DNA from: DHVE2 group archaeon
GTDB taxonomy: Archaea > Thermoplasmatota > Thermoplasmata > Thermoplasmatales > Aciduliprofundaceae
Length of the DNA: 64,000 bases
Direction of reading: 5' to 3'
Assembly (NCBI GenBank): GCA_027023265.1
Contig: JALVVV010000025.1
Coordinates: 1-64,000 of the forward strand
The notes below the pieces were generated by a model, which saw nothing but the letters and a program-made list of their open reading frames with translations, made no database searches and was not told the origin of the DNA. This document shows positions 38,101 to 50,257 of the stretch, piece after piece; the first letter of the stretch is position 1, and every line of letters starts with the position of its first letter. The position numbers and the translations under genes were made by a program.

Positions 38101-39170
38101 TCCGCAAGGTCGTAGTATACATCCACATCCCTTTTTCCGAGCTCAATAAGCTTGTAGCAAGTATCAGCCATTTTTTCAGCAGAGTAATTTTTCTTGAGAA
38201 TGTCTCTGAGGAGCAGGAGCGCGCTCACGCTCTTTTTATCCAGAGAGGAGGATTGCTCAGCGCTTGAAAGGGCCTCTTCGTAATTTCCCATGTAATACTC
38301 TATCTCTCCCTTTAGCTGCCATATCTTCGGGTCGTTAGGGTCTATTTTCACACCTTCCTTCACGGCCTTCAACGCATCCTCGTACTCTCCTCTTCTCTTG
38401 TAAATCACGGCCAGGTTAATCCACCCGTGCTTGTCATTGGGGTCTATTTCTATTGCTTTCTTGAATGATTTAATTGCGTCTTCGTATTTCTCAAGCTTTT
38501 CGTAAGCTGCACCCAGGTAGAGATAAGCTTCCTTGTTGTGAGGGGATAGATTCACGACGGTCTCCATTGTCTTGGCTGCACCTGCAAAATCCTTGGTGTT
38601 GTAAAGAAGAATCCCCTTTTTAACTAAAACCTTCTCGTCGTTGGGCTTGTGCTTGAGGTAACTTTCGTAGTACTTTATATCATCTGGATAGAGGTTTATG
38701 AGATTAAGGTATATTTTGAGAGCTTCGTCTATGTCCCCCATGCTCTCGTATATCTGCGCTTTCGTTTCCCACGCTTCTTTGCTCCTTCTGTTGATGTTTA
38801 TTGCCTTGTCTATGACGCTTTGAGCCAAATCGTAATTCTTTCTTTTGTTGAGGGTATTTGCATAGTAAATATACGCCTTCACGTTACCGGAATCGTACTC
38901 TATTGCTTTTTTAAGGGCCAAATCCCCGTTTTTGTAGTCATCTAACTGGCTCAGCAGATAACCGATTTCTGCAAGAACGGCTGAAAAATCGGATTTTTTA
39001 TCCTTAATCATATTTTTGTTTTCTTCAACCATGTTAAGTGCTTCGAGTAGAATCTCGTGAGCCTGTTTTGAGTCGCTGCTAATTAAATCATTCCCCTTAG
39101 AATGCAGCTTTTCAACCTTTTTCAGCAAACGGACTTCCTTGTTGAACAGAGAATCAAGGACCATAAACAC
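35181..39170 (-). CDS. Giant tetratricopeptide-repeat protein
   Basis: A 1,329-residue soluble protein built almost wholly of TPR units (about 30) with the usual W/Y-LG-Y/A-P pattern, for example AYLYLGAAYEKLEKYEDAIK, then SFKKAIEIDPND. After the repeats (about residue 1100) comes a helical region with two related segments, and the last 60 residues are Glu/Asp-rich. No catalytic domain is visible. TPR superhelices bind protein partners, so this is a scaffold. No signal peptide or membrane helix is seen. It is coupled to the small M50 protease downstream. Confidence 0.9.
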   Translation of the reverse strand: MFMVLDSLFNKEVRLLKKVEKLHSKGNDLISSDSKQAHEILLEALNMVEENKNMIKDKKSDFSAVLAEIGYLLSQLDDYKNGDLALKKAIEYDSGNVKAYIYYANTLNKRKNYDLAQSVIDKAININRRSKEAWETKAQIYESMGDIDEALKIYLNLINLYPDDIKYYESYLKHKPNDEKVLVKKGILLYNTKDFAGAAKTMETVVNLSPHNKEAYLYLGAAYEKLEKYEDAIKSFKKAIEIDPNDKHGWINLAVIYKRRGEYEDALKAVKEGVKIDPNDPKIWQLKGEIEYYMGNYEEALSSAEQSSSLDKKSVSALLLLRDILKKNYSAEKMADTCYKLIELGKRDVDVYYDLAEAYFNMKDYEKALEVIETVLSTTPHHLPTLILKKNVFIAMDKCEKAIETAEKVVDIDPKNTDSMVDISKCYEKLGKYESALHAIKRATEIDSKNVELLKMQRDLAKRVNKPTEIITACMSITSIVDDFESYIDLARAYYTMGRYGEAKSAMEKALRLKESADAWNLTGMINYKLGDFEKAKNAFQRATELEPGVKKYWSNLGWILEKLEKYQEAISCFERAIEIDPKDMRIWYEKGLCLEKLGDWEAALKCFDEALKINPDFLKALVEKGSALIELGHLDSALDVFNKIIKIEPNNHLALYKKAYIEFEKGNVEACQKDIEEALKYRKEEKYLELKKECCKKVSDSDCIINVSREILDINGRNMSTYRDLAQAYMEEGKIDSAIATYKRALQVYPDNETFLYELKDIYRREKRYADLIEIGKSILAINPDDFSTLLDMGEAYMNLEKYEEAENYLTRAMNIKKTKEAYDLMGELYMNKNDYHEAINNFSKSINIAEDPEIYYKIAKAQYKLGEYDLALSAVRNALRQDKNVKYYLLGAKLYQEIGDSANAIKFAKEALNLEDNREIRIFLGKILLDAGENVEVVNILKPPAKEGDVEALKLLATALEREGRNEEAIEIYKKIIEKKEDCVDAYIGMGRIYTALNRYEEARDAYEKAYKLNPNDVNVCQSLAFIYEKIGNEKDALKYLDFGIEIEPENKHLWTTKGRILLNMEKYEEAKRAYQKAISIDPDFRPAVEGLKDVERKIEEREIENYARSVLEEENRTGNRVTKKVAFKKLNIPLAIIPRVFKYIEEEVPMSVEDLEPEEKLKYDKATLVIAKKLNKIENIKLHEIVANTKISVNGAKRLLKYIEYCLSVAPDDEVTPEDERLVRKALDLDLKNLSALNIMLNLEVGICKAKKIQKIMREFLDDDVDANSERDTGAVRETPEFPVEEGKKETIKNIENNNDEKNDVESEQEESDDEQIREKDDGLYL

Positions 39171-39435
39171 TCACCCGAGCAGTATTTGAATCCAATAATT
39201 AAATCTTTTCCCCTCACATTTTGATACTCTTGCAAACTCCTGAATTTCTAAATAACTCAAATCAATTTGATTTGTCAAAATCTTTGTAAAACATATAAGG
39301 CATTTTCCGGAAATTTGGAAATCTACAGGGATTATCAATTGCGTGAAAATCCCTGGGTTGAATGTCGAAGTCACAGCCGAAAAATTCTTATGTATTTCGC
39401 AAAGTTTAAATATAATGTAAACATTGATTCAATAG

Positions 39436-39684
39436 ATGGAAGAAGTGGCTATTGTTTGTATTAGGGATGATTACGTGGTGGGGCGTGTTAGCAAGGCAAG
39501 GGTTAATCAGGCCATATTAGACGACAAAAACAGGATTGTTGGTCGTGTATCCTCGGTTTTTGGCCCGGTTGAAAGGCCATACATCAAGATACGCATACAG
39601 CGGAAATGGGGGAGGAGACTGTATCTGGGAGGTGAGAAAAGATGGGAGAAGAAGAAAAAAAGAAGGAAAAGAAGAAGTGGATAG
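39436..39684 (+). CDS. gar1: H/ACA ribonucleoprotein subunit Gar1
   Basis: An 82-residue protein with the Gar1 barrel signature: [20 protein letters not shown] near residues 32-51, followed by a basic [15 protein letters not shown] tail. Gar1 joins Cbf5, Nop10 and L7Ae in the guide-RNA pseudouridylation complex. gar1 immediately before tfb is a conserved archaeal gene pair. Its last 43 bases overlap the tfb start in another frame. A TATA-like TTTAAATATAA lies about 25 bp upstream. Confidence 0.9.
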
Positions 39685-40592
39685 ACGAAATAACGAGATG
39701 TCCAGAGTGTGGCTCCACTCATTTGGTGCGTGATTACGAGAGGGGGGAGCTGGTATGCATGGATTGCGGGCTCGTGATAGATGAGGCTTACATTGATCAG
39801 GGGCCGGAGTGGCGCGCTTTTGACTCTGAGCAGAGAGATTCCCGCTCAAGAACAGGCGCTCCGATGACATACACAATTCATGACAAGGGACTTAGCACAG
39901 AAATATCCTGGAAGAACAAGGATTCTTACGGAAAGAATATACCAACTCGTAGCAGGGCGCAATTATATCGCCTGCGCAAGTGGCAGAAGAGAATAAAGGT
40001 GAGCAATGCCGCTGAGAGAAATCTGACACAGGCTCTTCAGGAGTTGGAAAGAATATCTTCTAATTTAGGATTGCCGCAGGACGTTCGCGAGACCGCCGCT
40101 CTAATTTACCGGAAGGCTGTCAAGGAGAACATGATACGGGGAAGGAGCATAGAGGGTGTGGTTGCCGCGAGCATATACGCTGCCTGCAGGATGCTTGATA
40201 TTCCCAGAACCCTTGACGAGATTGCAGCCGTGACGCGTGTTAAGAAGAGGGAAATTGGAAGGGTTTACAGGATAATGGCAAGAACTCTCAAGCTCAATAT
40301 TCTTCCCAGCAAGCCGGAGGATTACATAGATAGATTCTGCGCCAGGCTAAAGCTGAGCGGGGAGGTTAAGAAGAAAGCGTATGAAATCATAAAAGAGGCG
40401 GAAAGGAAGCATATACTCTCCGGCAGGGGTCCAACTGGAGTGGCAGCTGCTGCTATATACATAGCTTCCATACTTGCTGACGAGCGTAGAACACAGAGAG
40501 AAGTAGCGGAAGTTGCTGGAGTAACGGAAGTTACCATAAGAAACCGGTACAAGGAACTGGTAGATAAGCTGAACCTGTCAGTGGATGTCTGA
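39642..40592 (+). CDS. tfb: Transcription initiation factor B
   Basis: A 316-residue TFB. Zinc ribbon [20 protein letters not shown] followed by MDCG (residues 20-40), B-finger/linker region with [19 protein letters not shown], then two cyclin-like repeats (about 110-205 and 210-300), each with the family pattern ([33 protein letters not shown]). It recruits RNA polymerase to TBP-bound promoters and reads the BRE. The lysine-rich start is encoded over the end of gar1. Confidence 0.97.
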
Positions 40593-40684
40593 ATTCGTGA
40601 CTAAATATCTCTTGTTTTTTATGTTTTCTTATAGAATCCCATGCTAACCAAAAAATTTATATAGAAGAAGTAAAAGATAAAATT

Positions 40685-41541
40685 ATGAATCCCCGAGAGT
40701 ATGTGTACGAACTTGGCGAGCTTAAGGGCTTTGCGCCTGGTCTATTTGGCGTTCCCACGGGCCAAAATTAGACGAGATGTTCTACACGGTAGAGTACGAT
40801 GAAAAGAAGGACAAATTCGTGAAGAAACCCCTTGGGGGCATCCCTCACCTTGCCGTGATAAATGTCACTGGTGTGCCGGACACCGGAAAATCCCTGTTAG
40901 CAGAGCAGTTTGCGGTGTATCAAGCTTCGAGGGATTACCCGGTGCTGTTCGTGACCGTGGAATCCCCGGCTAATTTCCTATATGCAGCGTTGAAGCAGAG
41001 GGCACAGGTTCTTGGTTTGGATTTTGGAAAAGTTGAAGAGAATGTAATAGTGGTGGACGCATCCCAGGACGCGGAGCTCAGGGAGAACATGAGCTCGCTC
41101 CTCGACACGATAGCATACGCTATAAGGAAGAAGAACACGAAGAATGTTGTAATAGATTCAGTCACAGGCCTGTACGAGCACCGCGAGGTTCTGGCGAGGC
41201 AGATTGTGAGACAGCTTTTCAACTTCCTGAAGAAATGGAAACAGACAGCAATTTTAGTTTCTCAGAAGAGATCTTCCCAGAGCAGCGAAACAGCGGAGGC
41301 AGCAGGTGGTCTTGCGGTGGCTCACATAGTGGACGGCACTATAGTCATGGACAAGGAAGTAATTGCGAGCAAATGGATGGCAAATCTATACGGGAAGAAG
41401 ATAGGTGAGGTAATCCGAACTATTCGCATAGATGGCTGCCGACTTGCACCGCACGATACCCGTACTTATGTTTTCGATATAAAGGACACGGGATTGATTG
41501 AGATAAAGGGGCCTCTTAGCGAGATGGCGGGAGGTGATTGA
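40685..41541 (+). CDS. KaiC/RadA-like RecA-superfamily ATPase, frameshifted near its start
   Basis: The main frame (from 40777) has Walker A NVTGVPDTGKSLLAEQF, Walker B KNVVIDSVTG and a loop ILVSQKRSSQSSE. Its nominal ATG 40777 has no ribosome site and cuts into the fold. A frame starting at ATG 40685, with a TATA-like TTTATATAG about 27 bp upstream, reads MNPREYVYELGELKGFAPGL and GVPTG, the usual KaiC entry (x-x-G-VPTG-x-x-LDEM). It meets stop TAG at 40769, while the other frame reads KLDEMFY at the same spot. One base is missing in CCAAAATTA (about 40762-40770). The whole product would be about 285 residues. It is coupled to the HTH gene downstream. Target unknown. Confidence 0.8.
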
Positions 41542-41542
41542 G

Positions 41543-42148
41543 ATGGAGGTTATAAACAAAGCAATTCACGGGAATAATGTGGACCGGCTTGCCGAGAGAA
41601 TATTTCAAGAAAGCATACGCATCGCCGGAGGTCTCAGGGGATTGGTGGAGTACCGCAATCTAACGTGGCTACCGAGTTTGGCCGAAGCGGCGTATATCAT
41701 AGCGCTGAAAAACGAGACAGTAAAAACGAATAGGGAGATTGCGGAGTACCTGGGGATTAGTGAGCAAACAGTTAAGAATGTGCTGGGTGCAGACGAACAC
41801 GTAGTCGAAAAGTACCTCCGTGGTGAGAGGGAGAAGGCGGGGGAGCACATCGCCGGCGGGCTTGCAAAGCTTGCTTACAGGCGCATAAAGGAGAACAGGG
41901 ATAACATTGACGAGAGGCTCGAAATCATGGAGGAAAGTGCTCGCTCCCTCGGGGTGGATTGGGCGGTGCATGTTCTTTCCAGCATTCGCGGCCTGGATTT
42001 CCCCGCTGGCATGGAGGAGCTATTGGAGAGGTTGCGCGGATACGCCATAATGGGGAAAACCATCGAGGAGATACTGGATGGCATTGAATACCCCGTGAAG
42101 AGCCCGGCTGAGCTGCTGCACGAGATACGCCGGAGGTTGAAGCCTTAG
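41543..42148 (+). CDS. Helix-turn-helix protein paired with the KaiC-like ATPase
   Basis: About 201 mostly helical residues. Residues near 60-85 form a helix-turn-helix (KTNREIAEYLGISEQTVKNV), followed by a long helical body. GGAGGTGA at 41530-41537 selects ATG 41543 over the GTG at 41534. The stop of the ATPase gene is one base upstream. The tight pairing suggests the ATPase signals to or moves this DNA-binding protein, which is inference from context. I do not recognise a named family. Confidence 0.7.
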   Translation: MEVINKAIHGNNVDRLAERIFQESIRIAGGLRGLVEYRNLTWLPSLAEAAYIIALKNETVKTNREIAEYLGISEQTVKNVLGADEHVVEKYLRGEREKAGEHIAGGLAKLAYRRIKENRDNIDERLEIMEESARSLGVDWAVHVLSSIRGLDFPAGMEELLERLRGYAIMGKTIEEILDGIEYPVKSPAELLHEIRRRLKP

Positions 42149-42172
42149 CTTTTCTGTGATGTTTCAATTTTT

Positions 42173-42251
42173 GCCTAACGGATTGCGGGTATGCGAAGCC
42201 CGTAAGGGTTTTTGGGTGAGCGGAGCGAAGCCAGATACTCGTTTGTTAGGC
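42173..42251 (-). repeat. attC-like recombination site of the mcrBC cassette
   Basis: A 79-nt imperfect palindrome. Outer arms are perfect: GCCTAAC and GTTAGGC (matching the attC cores RYYYAAC and GTTRRRY). An inner stem pairs 42185-42192 (GCGGGTAT) with 42235-42241 (ATACTCG, one mismatch), and extra bases between the stems are unpaired on one side, as in attC. The centre (CTCACCCAAA...TACG) is shared with the site at 45187. The mcrC stop codon TAA is the TAA of the left core. Minus-strand orientation follows the cassette. Confidence 0.75.
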
Positions 42252-42260
42252 GAAAGATGC
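42245..42260 (+). repeat. Cassette 2 terminal inverted repeat, 3' end
   Basis: GTTAGGCGAAAGATGC is the exact inverse complement of 45178-45193 at the other end of the mcrBC cassette (16 of 16). This is the complement between cassette start and left attC arm known from integron cassettes, extended well beyond the 7-base core. The partner copy covers 45178-45193. Confidence 0.85.
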
Positions 42261-43631
42261 ATATTTTTCACTCCATAAGTTTTCTATAGTAGTCATAAGG
42301 TCTTCTGGCTGAAATGTTACACTACATAGTACAATATCTACATTTACTCTAACATTAGTATAGTTTATCAAGGTAGCATATTGGTTGATTGTATCTTTGT
42401 TTATTTTAGGATATACCAAACATCCTATTCTCTTTTCTTTCGTTGAGCTGCTCATGTAAGATAAAACCTGATGAATGTCATGTCGGTGTTCTTCTAGGAT
42501 TTCTTCAGGATATTTCCCATATTGAAGATACAAAAGATGTTTTTTATATTTTACCTCTAGAATCAGTGTTTTTGAGTCTTTTTCAATTATTATGTCTGGC
42601 TTTAAGTGTTTTAAACTATTCCAATCTCCAAGATTATAAAATCTTATTTTTGAATTTTTTCTTATATCTGAATAGAAACGGGCTCCTATTCTCTTGGAGA
42701 AAATGTATGCCCAATGCTCTACCCAATATTCAAATAATCTATCCATTTCCAATGACCAAGGTAAACCGTAAAAATTACCAGCTTCTATTGAAAACCTACT
42801 TTGGTGAAGATATTCTATGCAAGCCCTGATTGCTTTTTCATATTCAGTACGATAGAAATTTGGGATACTTATTTTCTTCAATATTTCAATATCAGGATTT
42901 ACAGGTTTCACATCATCAAGTTTATTCTCTATACTAGATATCAATCGTTTAGCTCTATTTTTTATTTTAACAGGAACTTTTGGATCTGAAATATCATCAT
43001 TTATCATTTTAATGATTCCTTTAAATTGGCGGTGAACTTCTAGATCGGTGGAATAATCAGTAATTTTACTAATAAATTGGTCATATCTTCCATATGGAAC
43101 GCTTTTAGTAGAGTATGAGTTCCAATCAATGGTGCCAATAGGAACCTTTGAAATTATTTTTTTATCATCCATTCCATTCATAAAAAGATTAAGCGCTCGG
43201 GAGATGGCTTCTAATGTATTAATTGCTTTAAACCATCTTGGTAAAACACCATCGCTAACGATAGGTTCTTCATCTTTTAAGAAATTAGGCTGATATCTCC
43301 ACCCTATAAGCTCTAAAATTTCATATATCTTAACCCAGCCCAGCCTGGGTTTTACAACTATGCTTCCATAAACTTCGCCCCCATATGGATTTCTTAAAGG
43401 TGCAAGTCCAATTCTATTACCTGGTATAAGTATAAAACTTTTCTTTTCGTCATCCCATCTGTAAGACACCCCTAGAAATTCAAGGTACTTAGTATTTATA
43501 CGAATCCATTTCTTTAAATAATTCAGAGGATATCTTTTGTCAAACTTACTTGAGGGAAACCAACTTTTCAGATGTTCTAAAGGAAATATCTTTTCGTCTC
43601 CAAATTCCATCAACGATATTTTTATCTTCAA
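42246..43631 (-). CDS. mcrC: McrC-type nuclease subunit of a type IV restriction system
   Basis: A 461-residue protein. The C-terminal third carries a PD-(D/E)xK nuclease core: LKPDIIIEKD, then LILEVKYKKHL. Upstream are DUF2357-like segments (IRACIEYLHQ; GLPWSLEMDRLFEYWVEHW). McrC associates with the McrB hexamer and cuts modified foreign DNA. It starts at TTG 43631, three bases past the mcrB stop, with GGTGAG as ribosome site. Its stop codon falls inside the attC-like site, as is common for integron cassettes. Base composition is more AT-rich than nearby housekeeping genes. Confidence 0.88.
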   Translation of the reverse strand: MKIKISLMEFGDEKIFPLEHLKSWFPSSKFDKRYPLNYLKKWIRINTKYLEFLGVSYRWDDEKKSFILIPGNRIGLAPLRNPYGGEVYGSIVVKPRLGWVKIYEILELIGWRYQPNFLKDEEPIVSDGVLPRWFKAINTLEAISRALNLFMNGMDDKKIISKVPIGTIDWNSYSTKSVPYGRYDQFISKITDYSTDLEVHRQFKGIIKMINDDISDPKVPVKIKNRAKRLISSIENKLDDVKPVNPDIEILKKISIPNFYRTEYEKAIRACIEYLHQSRFSIEAGNFYGLPWSLEMDRLFEYWVEHWAYIFSKRIGARFYSDIRKNSKIRFYNLGDWNSLKHLKPDIIIEKDSKTLILEVKYKKHLLYLQYGKYPEEILEEHRHDIHQVLSYMSSSTKEKRIGCLVYPKINKDTINQYATLINYTNVRVNVDIVLCSVTFQPEDLMTTIENLWSEKYASFA

Positions 43632-43634
43632 TTT

Positions 43635-45158
43635 TTACTCACCTTGTACACCATCTATAAACGCAAGAATTTCATTTTTTGCAAGAGATAATCTGCCTTC
43701 ATTTATGTATTCACGAAGCAGTGGAACGATTTCGTATTTTAGTTTATTTTTAAACTCTTCTTCCGACTCAGCAATAAAATAGGTATGTCCTGGTTGCAAG
43801 TGCAATTCTTCGTCAGATGCAAACCTGAAAAATAAATTTTGGATAATGTTATAATACCTTAAAATTAAGCTTTTAGTATTCTCATCCACCTGCTTCTTAT
43901 CTAAAATTTCTTTCAATTTTTTCTCCGATGGCCAAACATCAATAAATGCAAATCTTCTGCGAATAGCAAAATCTAAAATTGCAATTGTTCTATCCGCGGT
44001 ATTCATTGTTCCAATTATGTAAAGGTTTCTAGGCATCATTATTTCTTTCCCTGATCTTAATCTTATTTTCCTTTCTTCATTAGGTTCAAAAAGAAATATA
44101 GCTTCTCCAAGAATTTTTGCTAAATCGCCCCTATTTATCTCATCAATTATGAGCACATATCCTTTATTTTCCTTCGCAGCTTTGATAGCTTCGTTTATGC
44201 TCTCTAATAGCGGTCCCTTATATTCATTAAAAATCAACTGATTTGAATTTACATCTGGTTTTATCCCTTCTATAAAGTCTTCGTATGATACTGATGCATG
44301 GAATTGAATAATTTTATAATCTGTTATTTTAGAGGCGGCTTTAAGAGATTTAGCGATTTCTTCAGCCAAGTATGTTTTCCCAGTTCCCGGTGGCCCTCGC
44401 AATATCAGATATTTCCTTTGAAGCAAATAATTTGACAATACCTCAGAGGAGGGATAAGATCTCCATAACTCGATCAAGTTGGGTAATAATTTGTCTTCTA
44501 ATATATTCTGAAAATCTTTTCTAAAAGGCCAATTTCTAAATTTTGCATATAAAATTAAGTGAGAAAGGAAAGCTTTTGCTCCTTTGTCATCTGGAGTTAT
44601 AACACAAACAGAAGGTAAATATTTGCCGTATTTTCTCCATAGCTCTGTATAATCAGAGAAATTTCCTAGATTATTCTTTATAGTATCAGGAATTTCTGAA
44701 TATTCATCGGTAATATCATCTTTAACGAATATATCCGTATTTTCCACATTCCAACCTTCATTATGGATAAATCTTAAAAGAAGTTTTATGCTTCTTCTAA
44801 CCCAAGGAATCCCCAGCCACTCCGCATCATCAGTTATTCCACCGGTACCTATTCCATAACATAAGAGCAATTGTTTAGAATTCTCTTCGTTGTCAGGAAA
44901 TACAACAAGTGAAAAATTTTCGTAAACACCACTTTGTGGAGCATTCTCATATAGTACACCCCAATACTGTATATTTTCCTCTGGGCCGTTCAATGAATTA
45001 TACCTTAATATACCATTTTTATCTATCTCTTCAGCAAAGCGCTTACCAAAAATATCCTCAAAAAGTTGTTTTGCATTTTCTAGACTTTGTTCGGAACTTT
45101 TATTTTTGATAGACTCTAAAAGTTTTTTTGCAGACTCTATATGTTTTTGCTTAAACAT
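43635..45158 (-). CDS. mcrB: McrB-type AAA+ GTPase of a type IV restriction system
   Basis: A 507-residue protein. An N-terminal specificity domain (about 1-240, with WLGIPWVRRSI) is followed by the AAA+ motor: Walker A LRGPPGTGKTYLAEEIAKSL near 253, Walker B VLIIDEINRGDLAKILGEA, and the McrB signature MNTADRTIAILDFAIRRRF. McrB binds modified DNA, hydrolyses GTP and drives cleavage by McrC. A strong GGAGGTT site precedes ATG 45158. The gene begins about 30 bp after the cassette boundary. The N-terminal domain determines which DNA modification is seen, and I cannot assign it. Confidence 0.92.
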   Translation of the reverse strand: MFKQKHIESAKKLLESIKNKSSEQSLENAKQLFEDIFGKRFAEEIDKNGILRYNSLNGPEENIQYWGVLYENAPQSGVYENFSLVVFPDNEENSKQLLLCYGIGTGGITDDAEWLGIPWVRRSIKLLLRFIHNEGWNVENTDIFVKDDITDEYSEIPDTIKNNLGNFSDYTELWRKYGKYLPSVCVITPDDKGAKAFLSHLILYAKFRNWPFRKDFQNILEDKLLPNLIELWRSYPSSEVLSNYLLQRKYLILRGPPGTGKTYLAEEIAKSLKAASKITDYKIIQFHASVSYEDFIEGIKPDVNSNQLIFNEYKGPLLESINEAIKAAKENKGYVLIIDEINRGDLAKILGEAIFLFEPNEERKIRLRSGKEIMMPRNLYIIGTMNTADRTIAILDFAIRRRFAFIDVWPSEKKLKEILDKKQVDENTKSLILRYYNIIQNLFFRFASDEELHLQPGHTYFIAESEEEFKNKLKYEIVPLLREYINEGRLSLAKNEILAFIDGVQGE

Positions 45159-45186
45159 TTCCGTTCAACCTCCTAAAGCATCTTTC

Positions 45187-45271
45187 GCCTAACGTTCGGC
45201 GGGTATCTGAAATCCTCGTAGAGGATTTGGGTGAGGGCTGAAAGCCCGAACCAGATACCCGCATGTTAGCA
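45187..45271 (-). repeat. attC-like recombination site of the TIR-STAND cassette
   Basis: An 85-nt palindrome with cores GTTAGGC (45187-45193, minus reading) and TGCTAAC (45265-45271, minus reading). A perfect 11-bp stem GCGGGTATCTG (45199-45209) / CAGATACCCGC (45252-45262) lies inside, with unequal spacers leaving extrahelical bases. Two smaller hairpins occupy the centre (AAATCC...GGATTT and GGGCT...AGCCC). It resembles the other site in order and in shared words (GTATCTGG, CTCACCCAAA). Confidence 0.75.
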
Positions 45272-45307
45272 GACCCGAAGGGCGAGCCTGCAATAGCAGG
45301 CAAAGAG

Positions 45308-45325
45308 TTCCGCACGCCGCCGAAC
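45308..45325 (-). repeat. Outer inverted-repeat arm next to the TIR-STAND stop
   Basis: TTCCGCACGCCGCC at 45308-45321 is the inverse complement of 47907-47920 at the other end of the cassette. The overlapping CCGCCGAAC at 45317-45325 is the inverse complement of 45194-45202. So a larger nested palindrome (about 45187-45328) surrounds the attC-like site. Between the arms lie two perfect hairpins, GCCTGC/GCAGGC and GACCCGAAGGGC-like. Confidence 0.6.
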
Positions 45326-45331
45326 ATCCTA

Positions 45332-47878
45332 TCACCCTCTTTTACTTGGTAAGTGTCGTGGAATCCTGTTAGGAGGTATTTTTAGTTGTTGTACTATCTG
45401 CTGTCTCTCTCTATAGTTAATCGGATGCAAGTATGCATATTCTATTACCATAAACTTAATAACTTTTTTAGATAGATCAGAAAAATCTGCTCGTTTAATT
45501 TCCTTCGAGATCGTTTTTAAATCTAGATGTTTTAGATACCACATATAAATACCATGTTTAATCAAAAAATAAGAAGGAGTATCGATTCTTTTGCTGGCAA
45601 GTTCTATTATTTCTATTAACTTATCGGACCCCAAAGAATATATCGTTTTCTTAATCAAACCAAAAACCACTATAAAGTTCAAATTCCAAAATATAGTTTC
45701 AGCAAGCTGTCTCATTTCTTCTCGTGACATTTCTTCATTCTTTTTTATGATTTCATTTAACTTCTTAGAAATTAAGTTTATAATATAATTTTTAGTTTCT
45801 TCATGGTTTACCATATCTAAGTAAAATGATAGGATTCTCAAATGAATATTTATACCAGAAATCATTAATTCTACCAACTCTTTCTTTTCTAAAGATCCTA
45901 CTCTACTTTTCAAAATACAACCAATAACTTCTCCTGTTTTTATTGCACGTCTAAGATCGGCGTCTAAAATAACATCCATATTACCATATTTTTCTTCTAT
46001 TTCATCTTTCCTTTTCAATAATCTCTTCCTTTCTTTCTCTGGTGTGGTATTTGCTGGAGGTAATGAAGCCTCAATTATCTCATCAATGTGCTCATCAAAA
46101 AACCTTGTCTCTTTTTTTGTTAATGAGGCTGGTTCATATCTCTCAAATAGTTTAGATGCCATTAATCTTATTATGGTTAAAATCTTTTCATCCTTAGTAT
46201 GATGGACTAAAAAAACAGTTATATATGCATTCTCCTCAACATGTATATTATTTACTATGTGTTTTATTTTTTCCCAAACCTCTTCTTTTCCAATATTCTC
46301 TGCAAGATATTTTGCTACAAAAAAGTAATAAAGATAAGGATACGTGAATGAGTAGTTGTTAAAATTGTTAGAAGAAAATATATAATCTATTTTTCTTAAT
46401 ATTTTATCCACTTCTATAGGAAGTGTAAATTTATTTTTATAATACTTAATGAATTCATTCATTTCTATAACACTTAGTTCCGATTTTTTCCTACTAAATA
46501 AATAGTAGGCTAATTCCGTTAGAAAATTCACATAAATATCTACCTCATCATTTTTAACCCCCCGTTTTCTCAGATATAAATAAATAAAAGCTTGATAAAA
46601 ATAGCCTTGCGATGTTATCTCTTGAGATATAGGCATAGCTAACGTCTCGTAAGTTACTATGGCAGAAAGTATATAAAAGGGATATGGTGGCATAATACCC
46701 CTTCCAAATGTTTTACCCAAGGTGCTTTCTATTTGCTCTACTTTTTTATCTATGTTTTTATATAAGTATATATCTTTTGTGGTCTCATCAGATTTTAAAT
46801 AAACCCATTTTTTGACTAATTCATATCTTTTGGAAGGTTTAAATTCATTAATGTGGAAATATTTAAATTCTGATAATAGGTTACTATCTATTATATTTAA
46901 TGAAAAAATATCATCAACGACCAAAATGACATGATCATATTTCTTTAGTATCTGTGATATTACTTTATCTTTATTTTTTGCTAGATGAAAATCATCAATA
47001 ATTGGGATTATATACGCACTCTCAACCTTCTTAATATCTCCATTATATTGCTGGTTAAAAAATCTAGAAATTATATTTTCCAATTTTCCTCTAAGTCTGT
47101 TCTGATCTCTAATATATACCGGAACTAAACCCATATCTCTCAATTTTTTAAAAATTATCTTACAAATAGTAGTTTTTCCTGACAATGTTTCTCCAGAGAT
47201 CACAATTTTTGAATAATCTAAAATATTTTTCATAAAATCATTAAAATCTATTTTCTTATCATACTCTCTGGATTCATCAAATACGGTAAATTCTGGTGGA
47301 ACAAATATATCTTCTAAATATACGTTTTCTTTTTGAGGATGTGCCTTCATTAGCAAGTCGGCATTCTGAAGGAATCGCATAAAATCCTCCTTTAAAGTCA
47401 GGTTTCTTGAATATGTCAAATCTTCTATAACTTTCTTTAATCCCTCATATACATTCAACCAAGCAGTATCTCTATTGGAAAAAGTTGATATTGGTTTTCC
47501 GTCTGTTGGAAGAGCTAGTGATTTGGTAAGCATGTCATCATCTTTCCACCCGCAAGGTGACAGAATTATGGGAACCACAGCAATATTTTTTCTTTTCTTT
47601 AAATTATAGGCGTCTTCTTTTTCTTTTTGACAATATTCTGATGCCAAGAAATTTGGAGATATAAAAAGACAAACGATGTCAGCATCTGATAAATTATTTT
47701 CAATTTCTTTTTCCCAATTTTTTCCCGGAACTATCTTTCTGTCGTACCATTCTTCAATTACCCCATTTCGTTTTAAGAGAGCAAGCCATTTTCTGAATTC
47801 TTCAACATATTTTTCATCCTTATGTGAGTAGGATATAAACAATTTTAATTTTGAATTTTTTTGTTCATTTATTTCCAT
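45332..47878 (-). CDS. TIR-STAND NTPase, probable abortive-infection defence protein
   Basis: An 848-residue protein. Residues 10-150 are a TIR domain: KLFISYSHKDEKYVEEFRKW, then EKEIENNLSDADIVCLFISP and NFLASEYCQKE. The glutamate in that last part is the usual NADase position. IFVPPEF introduces a STAND NTPase with Walker A ISGETLSGKTTICKI near 238 and Walker B AYIIPIIDDFH near 290. The remaining 450 residues are helical with no TPR or WD repeats recognised; they should sense the trigger. Relatives in bacteria deplete NAD on phage detection. It is the sole gene of cassette 1, with a GGAGG site nine bases before ATG 47878. Codon use is strongly AT-rich compared with the flanks. Confidence 0.85.
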   Translation of the reverse strand: MEINEQKNSKLKLFISYSHKDEKYVEEFRKWLALLKRNGVIEEWYDRKIVPGKNWEKEIENNLSDADIVCLFISPNFLASEYCQKEKEDAYNLKKRKNIAVVPIILSPCGWKDDDMLTKSLALPTDGKPISTFSNRDTAWLNVYEGLKKVIEDLTYSRNLTLKEDFMRFLQNADLLMKAHPQKENVYLEDIFVPPEFTVFDESREYDKKIDFNDFMKNILDYSKIVISGETLSGKTTICKIIFKKLRDMGLVPVYIRDQNRLRGKLENIISRFFNQQYNGDIKKVESAYIIPIIDDFHLAKNKDKVISQILKKYDHVILVVDDIFSLNIIDSNLLSEFKYFHINEFKPSKRYELVKKWVYLKSDETTKDIYLYKNIDKKVEQIESTLGKTFGRGIMPPYPFYILSAIVTYETLAMPISQEITSQGYFYQAFIYLYLRKRGVKNDEVDIYVNFLTELAYYLFSRKKSELSVIEMNEFIKYYKNKFTLPIEVDKILRKIDYIFSSNNFNNYSFTYPYLYYFFVAKYLAENIGKEEVWEKIKHIVNNIHVEENAYITVFLVHHTKDEKILTIIRLMASKLFERYEPASLTKKETRFFDEHIDEIIEASLPPANTTPEKERKRLLKRKDEIEEKYGNMDVILDADLRRAIKTGEVIGCILKSRVGSLEKKELVELMISGINIHLRILSFYLDMVNHEETKNYIINLISKKLNEIIKKNEEMSREEMRQLAETIFWNLNFIVVFGLIKKTIYSLGSDKLIEIIELASKRIDTPSYFLIKHGIYMWYLKHLDLKTISKEIKRADFSDLSKKVIKFMVIEYAYLHPINYRERQQIVQQLKIPPNRIPRHLPSKRG

Positions 47879-47906
47879 TTTTCACATCCTCCATTTTGCT
47901 TTTACA

Positions 47907-47931
47907 GGCGGCGTGCGGAATTTCTGCTAAC
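47907..47931 (+). repeat. Start of the TIR-STAND cassette (inverse-core end)
   Basis: Read on the minus strand this begins GTTAGCAG, then TTCCGCACGCCGCC. Both parts recur inverted at the far end of the cassette (45265-45272 and 45308-45321), where an extra 35 bp separates them. The predicted crossover is between 47931 and 47930. Confidence 0.7.
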
Positions 47932-47958
47932 TTTAGATTATGCGTAATTCGCATAATC
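47932..47958. promoter_or_regulatory. Palindrome beside the recombinase: attI/dif-like candidate or operator
   Basis: GATTATGCG (47936-47944) and CGCATAATC (47950-47958) form a perfect 9-bp inverted repeat with a 5-bp centre TAATT. It lies five bases from the first cassette boundary and 58 bp before the recombinase ATG. Two recombinase-binding arms around a short centre are what an attI or Xer dif site looks like. It could also be an operator controlling the two divergent genes. Confidence 0.5.
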
Positions 47959-48015
47959 CATCTGTTCTGCGAGTTATTCGGAAATTTTATTACCCCATAA
48001 CTCATTGAGGTGAGT

Positions 48016-48828
48016 ATGCAATTTGAGAATAAAAACCTTACCCCGAAAGAGCGGTACGAGTTGATAGGGAGGTTAATAGAGGAGCTGAAACTTCGCAAAT
48101 ACTCATATCGGACGGGGAAAGCATACGTTTACATAGTCAAAAATTTTCTCCGCTCCGGGCTCACGCCGCGGGAATTTCTTCTGAAGTACTATTCGGATAA
48201 GAGCAAATCCACAATCCGCCAAGCATATTTCGCATTGAAATTCTTCTACCGCAACGTTCTCCACGAGAGATTCGACGAAGAGATACCCCTCGCCAAGAAA
48301 AAGGAGAAATTACCCGTGGTACTGTCCCGGGACGAAGTAAAGAGAATGCTCTATGGCACGCAGAACCTCAAGCACCGCCTCGTGCTAATGTTTCTCTATT
48401 ACGCTGGTATGAGATTGAACGAAGTTCGCAACATCCGCTGGGAAGATGTGGACTTTGAGAGGGAAATAATCCACATAAAAGTTGCAAAGGGGGATAAAGA
48501 GAGGGTGGTTTTCCTGCATCCGAATCTAAAGAACACTCTGGAAGTCTATGGAAGGGGGCAGAAGGGGTACATCTTTATATCACAGAGAGGGAGTAAATAT
48601 TCCCCGAAGAGCATTCAGTTGATCGTGAAAAATGCTGCAAAAAGAGCGAGAATAAACAAAAATGTGACTCCACACACCCTGCGGCACTCCTTCGCCACAC
48701 ATCTTTTAGAAGGAGGCGCGGATATACGGTACATCCAGCAGTTGCTTGGACACAAAAATCTCAAAACCACGCAAATTTACACGCACGTGGCAAATAAGGA
48801 TATCAAAAATCTGGCCTCGCTCCTGTGA
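48016..48828 (+). CDS. xerA: Tyrosine recombinase, XerA/integron-integrase-like
   Basis: A 270-residue recombinase with a SAM-like N-terminal domain (YSYRTGKAYVYIVKNFL; STIRQAYFALKFFYRNVL) and a full catalytic set: Arg in GMRLNEVR, Lys in VAKGDKERV, HxxR in TPHTLRHSF, His in LLGHKN and the Tyr nucleophile in TTQIYTHV. The N-terminal words recall integron integrases as much as XerC/D, but the region before TPHTLRH lacks the roughly 35-residue insertion of IntI. It is either the host XerA (chromosome-dimer resolution) or the integrase of the adjacent cassettes. GAGG sits before ATG 48016; GTG 48010 is in frame. It is divergent from the cassette genes. Confidence 0.88.
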   Translation: MQFENKNLTPKERYELIGRLIEELKLRKYSYRTGKAYVYIVKNFLRSGLTPREFLLKYYSDKSKSTIRQAYFALKFFYRNVLHERFDEEIPLAKKKEKLPVVLSRDEVKRMLYGTQNLKHRLVLMFLYYAGMRLNEVRNIRWEDVDFEREIIHIKVAKGDKERVVFLHPNLKNTLEVYGRGQKGYIFISQRGSKYSPKSIQLIVKNAAKRARINKNVTPHTLRHSFATHLLEGGADIRYIQQLLGHKNLKTTQIYTHVANKDIKNLASLL

Positions 48829-48886
48829 CCATTTTTGTCCAAAAAGAAATAAATATAACCAAGCGTATGCGAGCGAGGTGACGGGC

Positions 48887-50257
48887 ATGAAAGAGTACGA
48901 TTTGATTGCGTTCGGTACGGGCAGTGCGATGAACATCGTCGCCCCCTTAATTGAGAGAAATCCCCGAATGAAAGTTGCGGTGATTGAGAACGAGAAGGCG
49001 GGGGGGATTTGCTTAACCCGTGGCTGCATTCCGAGCAAGATGCTTGCTTATCCCGCGGAATTGGTGCACGATATTCGCAGGGCTAAGGAATTTTACATTG
49101 ATGCAAAAATAAAGAGCGTGGATGGCGATGCGCTTCTCAGAAGGGTGCAGGAGGATGTGGACAAGGAGAGCAAGATGATTGAACACAGTTTGAGAAATCA
49201 TCCCAGCGTGGATTATTACGATAAAACCGCAAGCTTTGTTTCAGACTACACAATCGACGTCGGGGGCAAAGAAATATACGGGGAGAAAATTCTACTATGC
49301 ACGGGCTCAAAGCCTCTCGTACCACCGATTCCCGGATTGAAAGAGGCGGGGTTCATTACTAATAGGGAATTCTTCTACTCACTTAAAAAATTGCCAAAGA
49401 GCATAGCCATAATCGGCGGGGGATTTGTGGCTCTTGAGTTAGGACATTTCATGGCCATGTTCGGCACCGAGGTTCATGTTATAGAGATGCACCCAGATAT
49501 AATTATGGCGGAAGAGCCCGAGGCCAGAGCGCTCGTGCGCAGGGAATTATCCTCCGTGATGCATTTCCATCTTGGTTATAAAGCTAAGGAAGTTAGAAAA
49601 GCCATGGGCAAGAAGGTAGTGGTTGCGGAGAATAGAGAAGGCGAGACAATAGAGATAAAGGCAGACGAGATAATGGTCGCCACCGGCCGCGCGCCGTGGA
49701 AGGAGACGAATGTGGAGAAGACGGGCGTGAAAACAGATGAAAGGGGATGGATAATAACCGACGAATTCTTGCGAACGACCAAGGAAGGAATATGGGCATG
49801 TGGCGATGCAAACGGCAAATATCTTTTCAAGCACGTGGCAAACTACGAGAGCGAAATCGTTTATTACAATGCTTTCCGCAACGCCAACGCGAAGGTGGAT
49901 TATCATGCAATTCCGCATGCAATTTTCACAACTCCGCAAGTTGCTGGCGTGGGTATGAAGGAAGAAGAAGCGAAGAAGAAACACGAAATTTTAGTGGGGG
50001 AATATAAATACGAGAACACCGCCATGGGCGAGGCGATGCGCCTAAAGGACTATTTCGTGAAGGTAATCGTGGATAAGGACACTTACAATATTTTAGGTGC
50101 GACAATCGTCGGCCCTCAAGCATCTGTGCTCATTCAGGAAATAATCAATCTAATGTACACTAGAGAGCAGGCGAGCGCAATGTATAGAGCGATTCATATT
50201 CATCCGGCAATGAACGAAGTCGTGCAGAGGGCATTCTACAATCTTAGAGAGGTGTGA
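48887..50257 (+). CDS. Pyridine nucleotide-disulfide oxidoreductase (lipoamide dehydrogenase-like)
   Basis: A 456-residue flavoprotein. It has an FAD loop DLIAFGTGSAMNIV near residue 5, the redox disulfide GGICLTRGCIPSKML near 40-54 (C-x4-C, as in lipoamide dehydrogenase and mercuric reductase), NAD loop IAIIGGGFVALELG near 178, and the second FAD motif GIWACGDANG. The C-terminal dimer domain ends with HIHPAMNEVVQRAF, carrying the His-Glu pair that activates the disulfide. The FAD loop has AFGTGS rather than GxGxxG, slightly off pattern. ATG 48887 has a GAGGTG site. Lipoamide is the likely substrate given gcvT and lplA in the window, but other disulfides are possible. Confidence 0.88.
   Translation: MKEYDLIAFGTGSAMNIVAPLIERNPRMKVAVIENEKAGGICLTRGCIPSKMLAYPAELVHDIRRAKEFYIDAKIKSVDGDALLRRVQEDVDKESKMIEHSLRNHPSVDYYDKTASFVSDYTIDVGGKEIYGEKILLCTGSKPLVPPIPGLKEAGFITNREFFYSLKKLPKSIAIIGGGFVALELGHFMAMFGTEVHVIEMHPDIIMAEEPEARALVRRELSSVMHFHLGYKAKEVRKAMGKKVVVAENREGETIEIKADEIMVATGRAPWKETNVEKTGVKTDERGWIITDEFLRTTKEGIWACGDANGKYLFKHVANYESEIVYYNAFRNANAKVDYHAIPHAIFTTPQVAGVGMKEEEAKKKHEILVGEYKYENTAMGEAMRLKDYFVKVIVDKDTYNILGATIVGPQASVLIQEIINLMYTREQASAMYRAIHIHPAMNEVVQRAFYNLREV

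Follow-up and report, generated by a model that had tools for sequence, protein, structure and literature searches.

A putative integron-type platform with a compact XerA-like recombinase and an McrBC cassette in a DHVE2 group archaeon

Integrons are defined by IntI. Integron function has been said to depend on the insertion characteristic of IntI (PMC8138268, PMC9668308), and a survey of tyrosine recombinases calls it essential even though it is not fully conserved in an integron-like subgroup (PMC8138268). Only six IntIs have been reported from archaea, where the additional domain is present (Ghaly et al., 2022; PMC9668308). Within the open-access literature, archaeal integrons were found described only in Ghaly et al. 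(2022), subscription papers and preprints lying mostly outside that search. The DNA considered here, referred to as the window, is a 64,000-nt stretch of contig JALVVV010000025.1 from a draft genome of 1.64 Mb assigned to a DHVE2 group archaeon (Aciduliprofundaceae; GCA_027023265.1), and its archaeal character is seen in the TFIIB and KaiC genes next to the array. Read along the minus strand, a divergent recombinase gene is followed by an attI-like palindrome, a TIR-STAND gene and an attC, and then by mcrB, mcrC, a second attC and a host HTH/KaiC pair (Table 1). Every cassette ORF and attC within the window points away from the recombinase, and this order of genes and sites reads as that of an integron; Rfam returned no match within 39000-50000. 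With integrons, including archaeal ones (PMC9668308), the locus shares the divergent recombinase gene, the adjoining attI, the G/TT crossover, the R''-L''-L'-R' attC at the 3' end of the cassette and the complementary ends of each cassette. It differs in that the recombinase lacks the IntI-specific insertion and falls outside the IntI clade sampled, in that the paired arm extends over 9-10 nt in the window family as opposed to a 7-nt core, in that the attC is forked, with two hairpins and CCCAAAT and CTTC motifs, and in that the cassettes span several kb and hold whole defence operons.

Table 1. Coordinates of the recombinase gene, recombination sites and cassettes, in positions of the window.
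Feature	Position	Strand	Basis
Compact XerA-like tyrosine recombinase of 272 aa, oriented divergently to the cassettes	48010-48828	+	PF00589, E 1.5e-43
attI-like site	47931-48006	-	Conserved 5' of the recombinase in ~40 loci; sequence diverges abruptly past G/TT
Cassette 1, 2,738 bp	45193-47930	-	9-nt complementary ends
Gene for an 848-aa TIR-STAND ATPase, a DS8-like anti-phage protein	45332-47878	-	TIR_2, 8.8e-20
attC of cassette 1	45185-45273	-	Covariance model (built from 28 sequences, this site included), 65.9 bits, E 3.6e-11
Cassette 2 (McrBC), 3,014 bp	42179-45192	-	16-nt complementary ends; homologous cassette beside a different neighbour in G005
mcrB-like AAA NTPase gene, 507 aa	43635-45158	-	AAA_5, 1.1e-17; NF008457 McrB, 1.3e-35, below cut-off
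mcrC-like gene, 461 aa	42246-43631	-	PF10117 McrBC, 1.6e-14, above cut-off
attC of cassette 2, partly degenerate	42171-42253	-	Covariance model (this site outside the 28 sequences it was built from), 28.7 bits, E 0.0064
16-nt arm on the R'' side, McrBC cassette 3' end	42245-42260		Direct reading
16-nt arm on the R' side, McrBC cassette 5' end	45178-45193		Direct reading

The recombinase retains the full catalytic set (R, K, HxxR, H and Y), and by its sequence it is not an IntI. In its family the IntI insertion is missing, with 33+11 alignment columns (~44 residues) that are filled in IntI standing empty, and an N-terminal stretch of ~11 residues is also lacking; the IntI with an additional domain around patch III, a feature of classical integrons, is not found at this locus. 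Against TIGR02249 the protein scores 200 bits, below the cut-off of 265, and against NF040815 it scores 220.3 bits, barely reaching the cut-off of 220. In a tree built by a quick method, with long branches flagged and archaeal IntIs left out, the family forms one clade (SH-aLRT 99) beside XerA and outside the IntI clade sampled, such that the window family, XerA and IntI make up three supported groups (99, 100 and 100). The neighbours of its fold among solved structures are XerA first and IntI next, the XerA structures 5hxy and 4a8e being closest (~30% identity, similar length); the AlphaFold model (pTM 0.59) is too loose for domain details and served for the fold family only. The enzyme is thus like archaeal XerA in its structural neighbours, its length and its NF040815 score, but it belongs to a separate clade linked to cassette arrays. 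The window genome holds its own XerA (G000:C18) in addition to this second, distinct enzyme, whose family is patchy within the order, unlike a housekeeping, generally single-copy XerA/dif system. Close relatives of the recombinase (~60-95% identity over most of the length) are found in DHVE2/Aciduliprofundaceae, Aenigmatarchaeota, Pacearchaeota, Woesearchaeota, Diapherotrites, Micrarchaeota and others, the nearest named ones being from DHVE2 group archaea. Tyrosine recombinases adjacent to IS91 on Bradyrhizobium plasmids are of similar length and ~40% identical to it; they differ in forming a long, unstable branch in the tree and, in the one locus inspected (L130 3010-3870), in adjoining an IS91 transposase.

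The attI of the window is an imperfect palindrome, GGATTATGCG-n-CGCATAATC; next come TAAA and the crossover G/TT, whose G is position 47931. The same arrangement recurs beside relatives of the recombinase in Aciduliprofundaceae and many DPANN archaea, comprising a common attI, locus-specific cassettes, complementary ends of ~9 nt and forked attCs that point away from the recombinase. In these relatives the attI is ~60-75 bp long and terminates at G/TT, and the loci differ immediately beyond it, the only similarity past attI being the cassette-start consensus GTTANNNNNAAT; an insertion point of the kind seen in integrons, adjoining the recombinase gene, conserved, and with divergence directly past G/TT, is found here. 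By our own count, ~34 of ~46 contigs break off less than 3.6 kb into the array side and ~4 on the opposite side, a pattern expected of arrays that are repeated or variable.

An earlier note on this DNA had drawn attention to perfect 16-bp inverse ends of the McrBC cassette, and the match is exact: GTTAGGCGAAAGATGC (42245-42260, + strand) is the inverse complement of GCATCTTTCGCCTAAC (45178-45193). The mcrC stop codon, which had been placed inside the site, does lie there, with TAA at 42248-42246 (minus strand) being the TAA of GCCTAAC and falling in the R'' box of the attC, and the proposed crossovers at 42179 and 45192 are right because GCCTAAC is present at 42173-42179 and at 45187-45193. 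The 16-nt pair coincides exactly with the cassette borders, and by a simple calculation a stretch of 3 kb should contain ~0.001 such perfect inverted pairs by chance. Nine of the 16 bp follow the family rule, as other cassettes mostly pair 9 or 10 end bases wherever both true ends can be seen, and it is unusual for 7 more to pair (4^-7, ~6e-5 per single cassette); these are the longest complementary ends among the cassettes compared. The additional pairs consist in part of mcrC coding sequence. As a feature of the site the long match is real but an outlier from the family norm of 9-10 nt, and the accompanying claim that the genes cannot explain it was too strong, exact as the match is, given that the right arm consists of the last mcrC codons (YASFA-stop). 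In the homologous McrBC cassette of a sister species (G005), the 16 nt at the start are identical and the end shows three differences, two of them at positions that remain G-T pairs. All three are synonymous in mcrC, again ending in YASFA-stop, and coding sequence therefore constrains the right arm; with the start identical and the end differences synonymous, this cassette may long have possessed the extended pairing, which, as read from these two copies, is tied to the mcrC coding sequence. The junction of a circular form, joining 42179 and 45192, had been predicted to fold into a single hairpin, and it does so with a continuous 16-bp outer stem at -19.5 kcal/mol, as opposed to -8.6 kcal/mol for the integrated attC site (both with DNA parameters). 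The ends of the TIR cassette, GTTAGCAGA (47931-47923) and TCTGCTAAC (45273-45265), are complementary over 9 nt, and its circular junction has a 9-bp arm and a value of -30.5 versus -24.8 when integrated.

Where both ends are seen, the first 9-10 nt of a cassette are often the exact complement of the last 9-10 nt before its attC, a length of 9 paired nt that ~2.6% of all start-end combinations attain, and the R'' and R' arms of a single integrated attC usually pair over 3-5 nt only. Eleven arms scored at 3 nt in one end comparison; for those cassettes also included in a separate measurement, the low value mostly arose by taking the first GTT of GTTGTT, and that measurement gives 9 nt. In some arrays adjacent cassette ends fail to pair, perhaps marking attC sites that were missed or have decayed. 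In an alignment of 28 attCs, AAC, CAAA, TTC and GTT are invariant, and the 12-bp L stem has double changes at 9 pairs; ACTTC, present in nearly all, is ATTTC in the window. The stability of the inner hairpins is above the shuffled mean in 44/57 sites for one and 54/57 for the other. The R and L boxes pair in an imperfect hairpin as in integron attCs, and that of cassette 1 runs R''-L''-two hairpins-L'-R' with CCCAAAT and TTTCAG motifs and a fold z of about -4.6 to -5.2, while the last attC of the window is degenerate. BLAST with one attC across the genome of the window gave nothing else convincing because the family is conserved in structure, not in letters, and first palindrome scans did no better than on shuffled sequences because integrated arms pair over only 3-5 nt; CAAA/CTTC anchors combined with the L stem did better, and a covariance model then replaced them. 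With this model attCs were detected in 9 of 101 relatives, all within the recombinase-bearing family of the window, and in 25 of 35 genomes with recombinase loci (0 to 19 per genome), where same-strand series of 5-8 sites occur in genomes reached via recombinase loci, among them G103, G128 and G118. Matches 5' of the recombinase all lie on one strand, save for one palindromic match (L067). Three draft genomes (G012, G015 and G016) have attC matches, and a close relative of the enzyme was not detected in them. A single weaker match (E 2.9e-5) lies elsewhere in the genome of the window (G000:C14:9530-9626, L214), and an Argoarchaeum genome (G131) contains an IntI above the TIGR02249 cut-off (C41:3521-4306) alongside 19 attC matches of the new family.

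The McrBC unit has the marks of an integron-type cassette, as had been proposed: attI, attC and G/TT borders are present, its start and end pair with each other, and in a sister species the same cassette lies beside another neighbour. There, in G005, the McrBC cassette (93% nucleotide identity to that of the window) sits directly on an attI with no TIR cassette in between. It had been argued that a recombinase-less mcrBC locus keeping the same flanks would assign the repeat to the restriction operon; the G005 copy begins at the same G/TT on attI and differs outside, so that this argument does not overturn the cassette reading. The attI-like sequence carrying this copy (G005:C55; L205 7608-7734) is an orphan without a recombinase gene, and it is possible that it represents a fossil or a second platform. 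At the place in G005 syntenic with the window, different cassette ends are found: GTTGTGCGAA follows attI where contig C5 ends, and contig C44 has TTCGCACAAC-attC plus HTH and KaiC genes, from which we infer one cassette across an assembly gap. In the closed genome G011, recombinase and attI are present, the attI continues into other sequence, the covariance model has no match in the whole genome, and the attI appears empty; of the two closed genomes of the family of the window that bear the recombinase, one thus has cassettes and one is apparently empty. The contigs of G004 and G003 break at the locus where an empty site was sought. L055 and L071 share identical first-cassette ends and attC. 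Cassettes with identical GTTGTCCGA ends and similar attCs are also seen in a Thermoplasmatales MAG (L048) and an Aenigmatarchaeota MAG (L102), a likeness that suggests transfer of cassettes between phyla.

Taken as a whole, the locus is very probably a chromosomal integron-type platform run by the neighbouring recombinase, with McrBC as one of its cassettes. The layout, the conserved attI, the attC family, the cassette-end rule and the occurrence of one cassette in two contexts are legible in the sequence itself, and the link between enzyme and attC is one of genetic association; catalysis by the window recombinase, single-strand folding of attC and a circular intermediate would complete the model. 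It proposes that the recombinase (48010) would bind two sites, the palindromic attI beside the start of its gene and the attC of circular cassettes in folded form, and would exchange strands at G/TT, such that cassettes would enter at attI and stack outward, and McrBC, lying beyond the TIR-STAND cassette, was presumably inserted first. Each cassette would bring its own attC at its 3' end, and the R' half of an integrated attC would be supplied by the next cassette, so that both halves would form a single hairpin in the circular form only. Very unlikely is a classical archaeal integron in which an IntI, elsewhere or formerly present, moves the cassettes and the adjacent enzyme is a bystander. 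The attC does resemble that of integrons in its R/L boxes and GTT core, and archaeal attC clusters without IntI are already known (PMC9668308), but no IntI above the TIGR02249 cut-off is present in 40 of the 41 genomes checked, the attI is conserved beside the window-type enzyme in loci with enough sequence, and the attC covariance model gave 0 matches in 20 bacterial genomes with IntI. A very improbable scenario has the host XerA (G000:C18) acting on dif-like sites, the elements being mobile elements that exploit Xer; the attI palindrome GATTATGCG..CGCATAATC is dif-like by eye and the window recombinase XerA-like, but relatives of XerA occur in most of the 101 relatives searched, attCs are confined to the family that has the second enzyme, the two recombinases form separate clades, and a dif site is no hairpin array with locus-specific arms. 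It is scarcely credible that the 16-bp repeat serves as terminal inverted repeat to an mcrBC transposon or is part of the mcrBC operon, for all its transposon-like look and the G005 copy with no adjoining recombinase gene, as the ends of the unrelated TIR cassette next door pair likewise but in a different sequence, attC structures enclose the repeat, and the sister locus differs outside the cassette. Only mcrB and mcrC lie between the arms, with no transposase, and the inverted-repeat transposon reading was rejected.

On the integron-type platform favoured here, the cargo comprises recognisable members or relatives of McrBC type IV restriction, TIR-STAND (DS8-like) and DSR1 defence genes, in this case as integron cassettes in an archaeon. 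The TIR-STAND protein scores 449.7 bits against NF053861 DS8_antiphage, below the cut-off of 790, and 226 bits against PDC-S60. In the small sample of cassettes compared, those of vent archaea often bear defence systems (in Thermoplasmatota McrBC, TIR-STAND, a DSR1 match of 1806 bits in L048, a GajB-like helicase in L047 and HerA/NurA/AAA genes in G013), and DPANN cassettes carry transporter, isochorismatase-like, S66 peptidase, Nmad3 and unknown genes. In L054, L055 and L059 a TATA-like box (TTTTATAA) is visible by eye just 5' of the ATG at the cassette start, and DPANN cassettes seem to have their own TATA-like box, unlike the mostly promoterless bacterial cassettes. The platform and its relatives probably represent an additional integron type that is widespread among archaea, in which a compact XerA-like enzyme with no IntI-specific domain would recombine folded attCs that are forked into two hairpins and have 9-nt arms, and some "integrase-less" archaeal attC clusters may be complete platforms of this kind. 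If this is true, a clade of smaller enzymes placed at attI and next to arrays of attCs across several archaeal phyla would mean either that the extra domain of IntI is dispensable or that attC recombination arose more than once. As the cassettes of vent archaea often carry defence systems, the platform may be a route of exchange by which archaea trade immunity genes.
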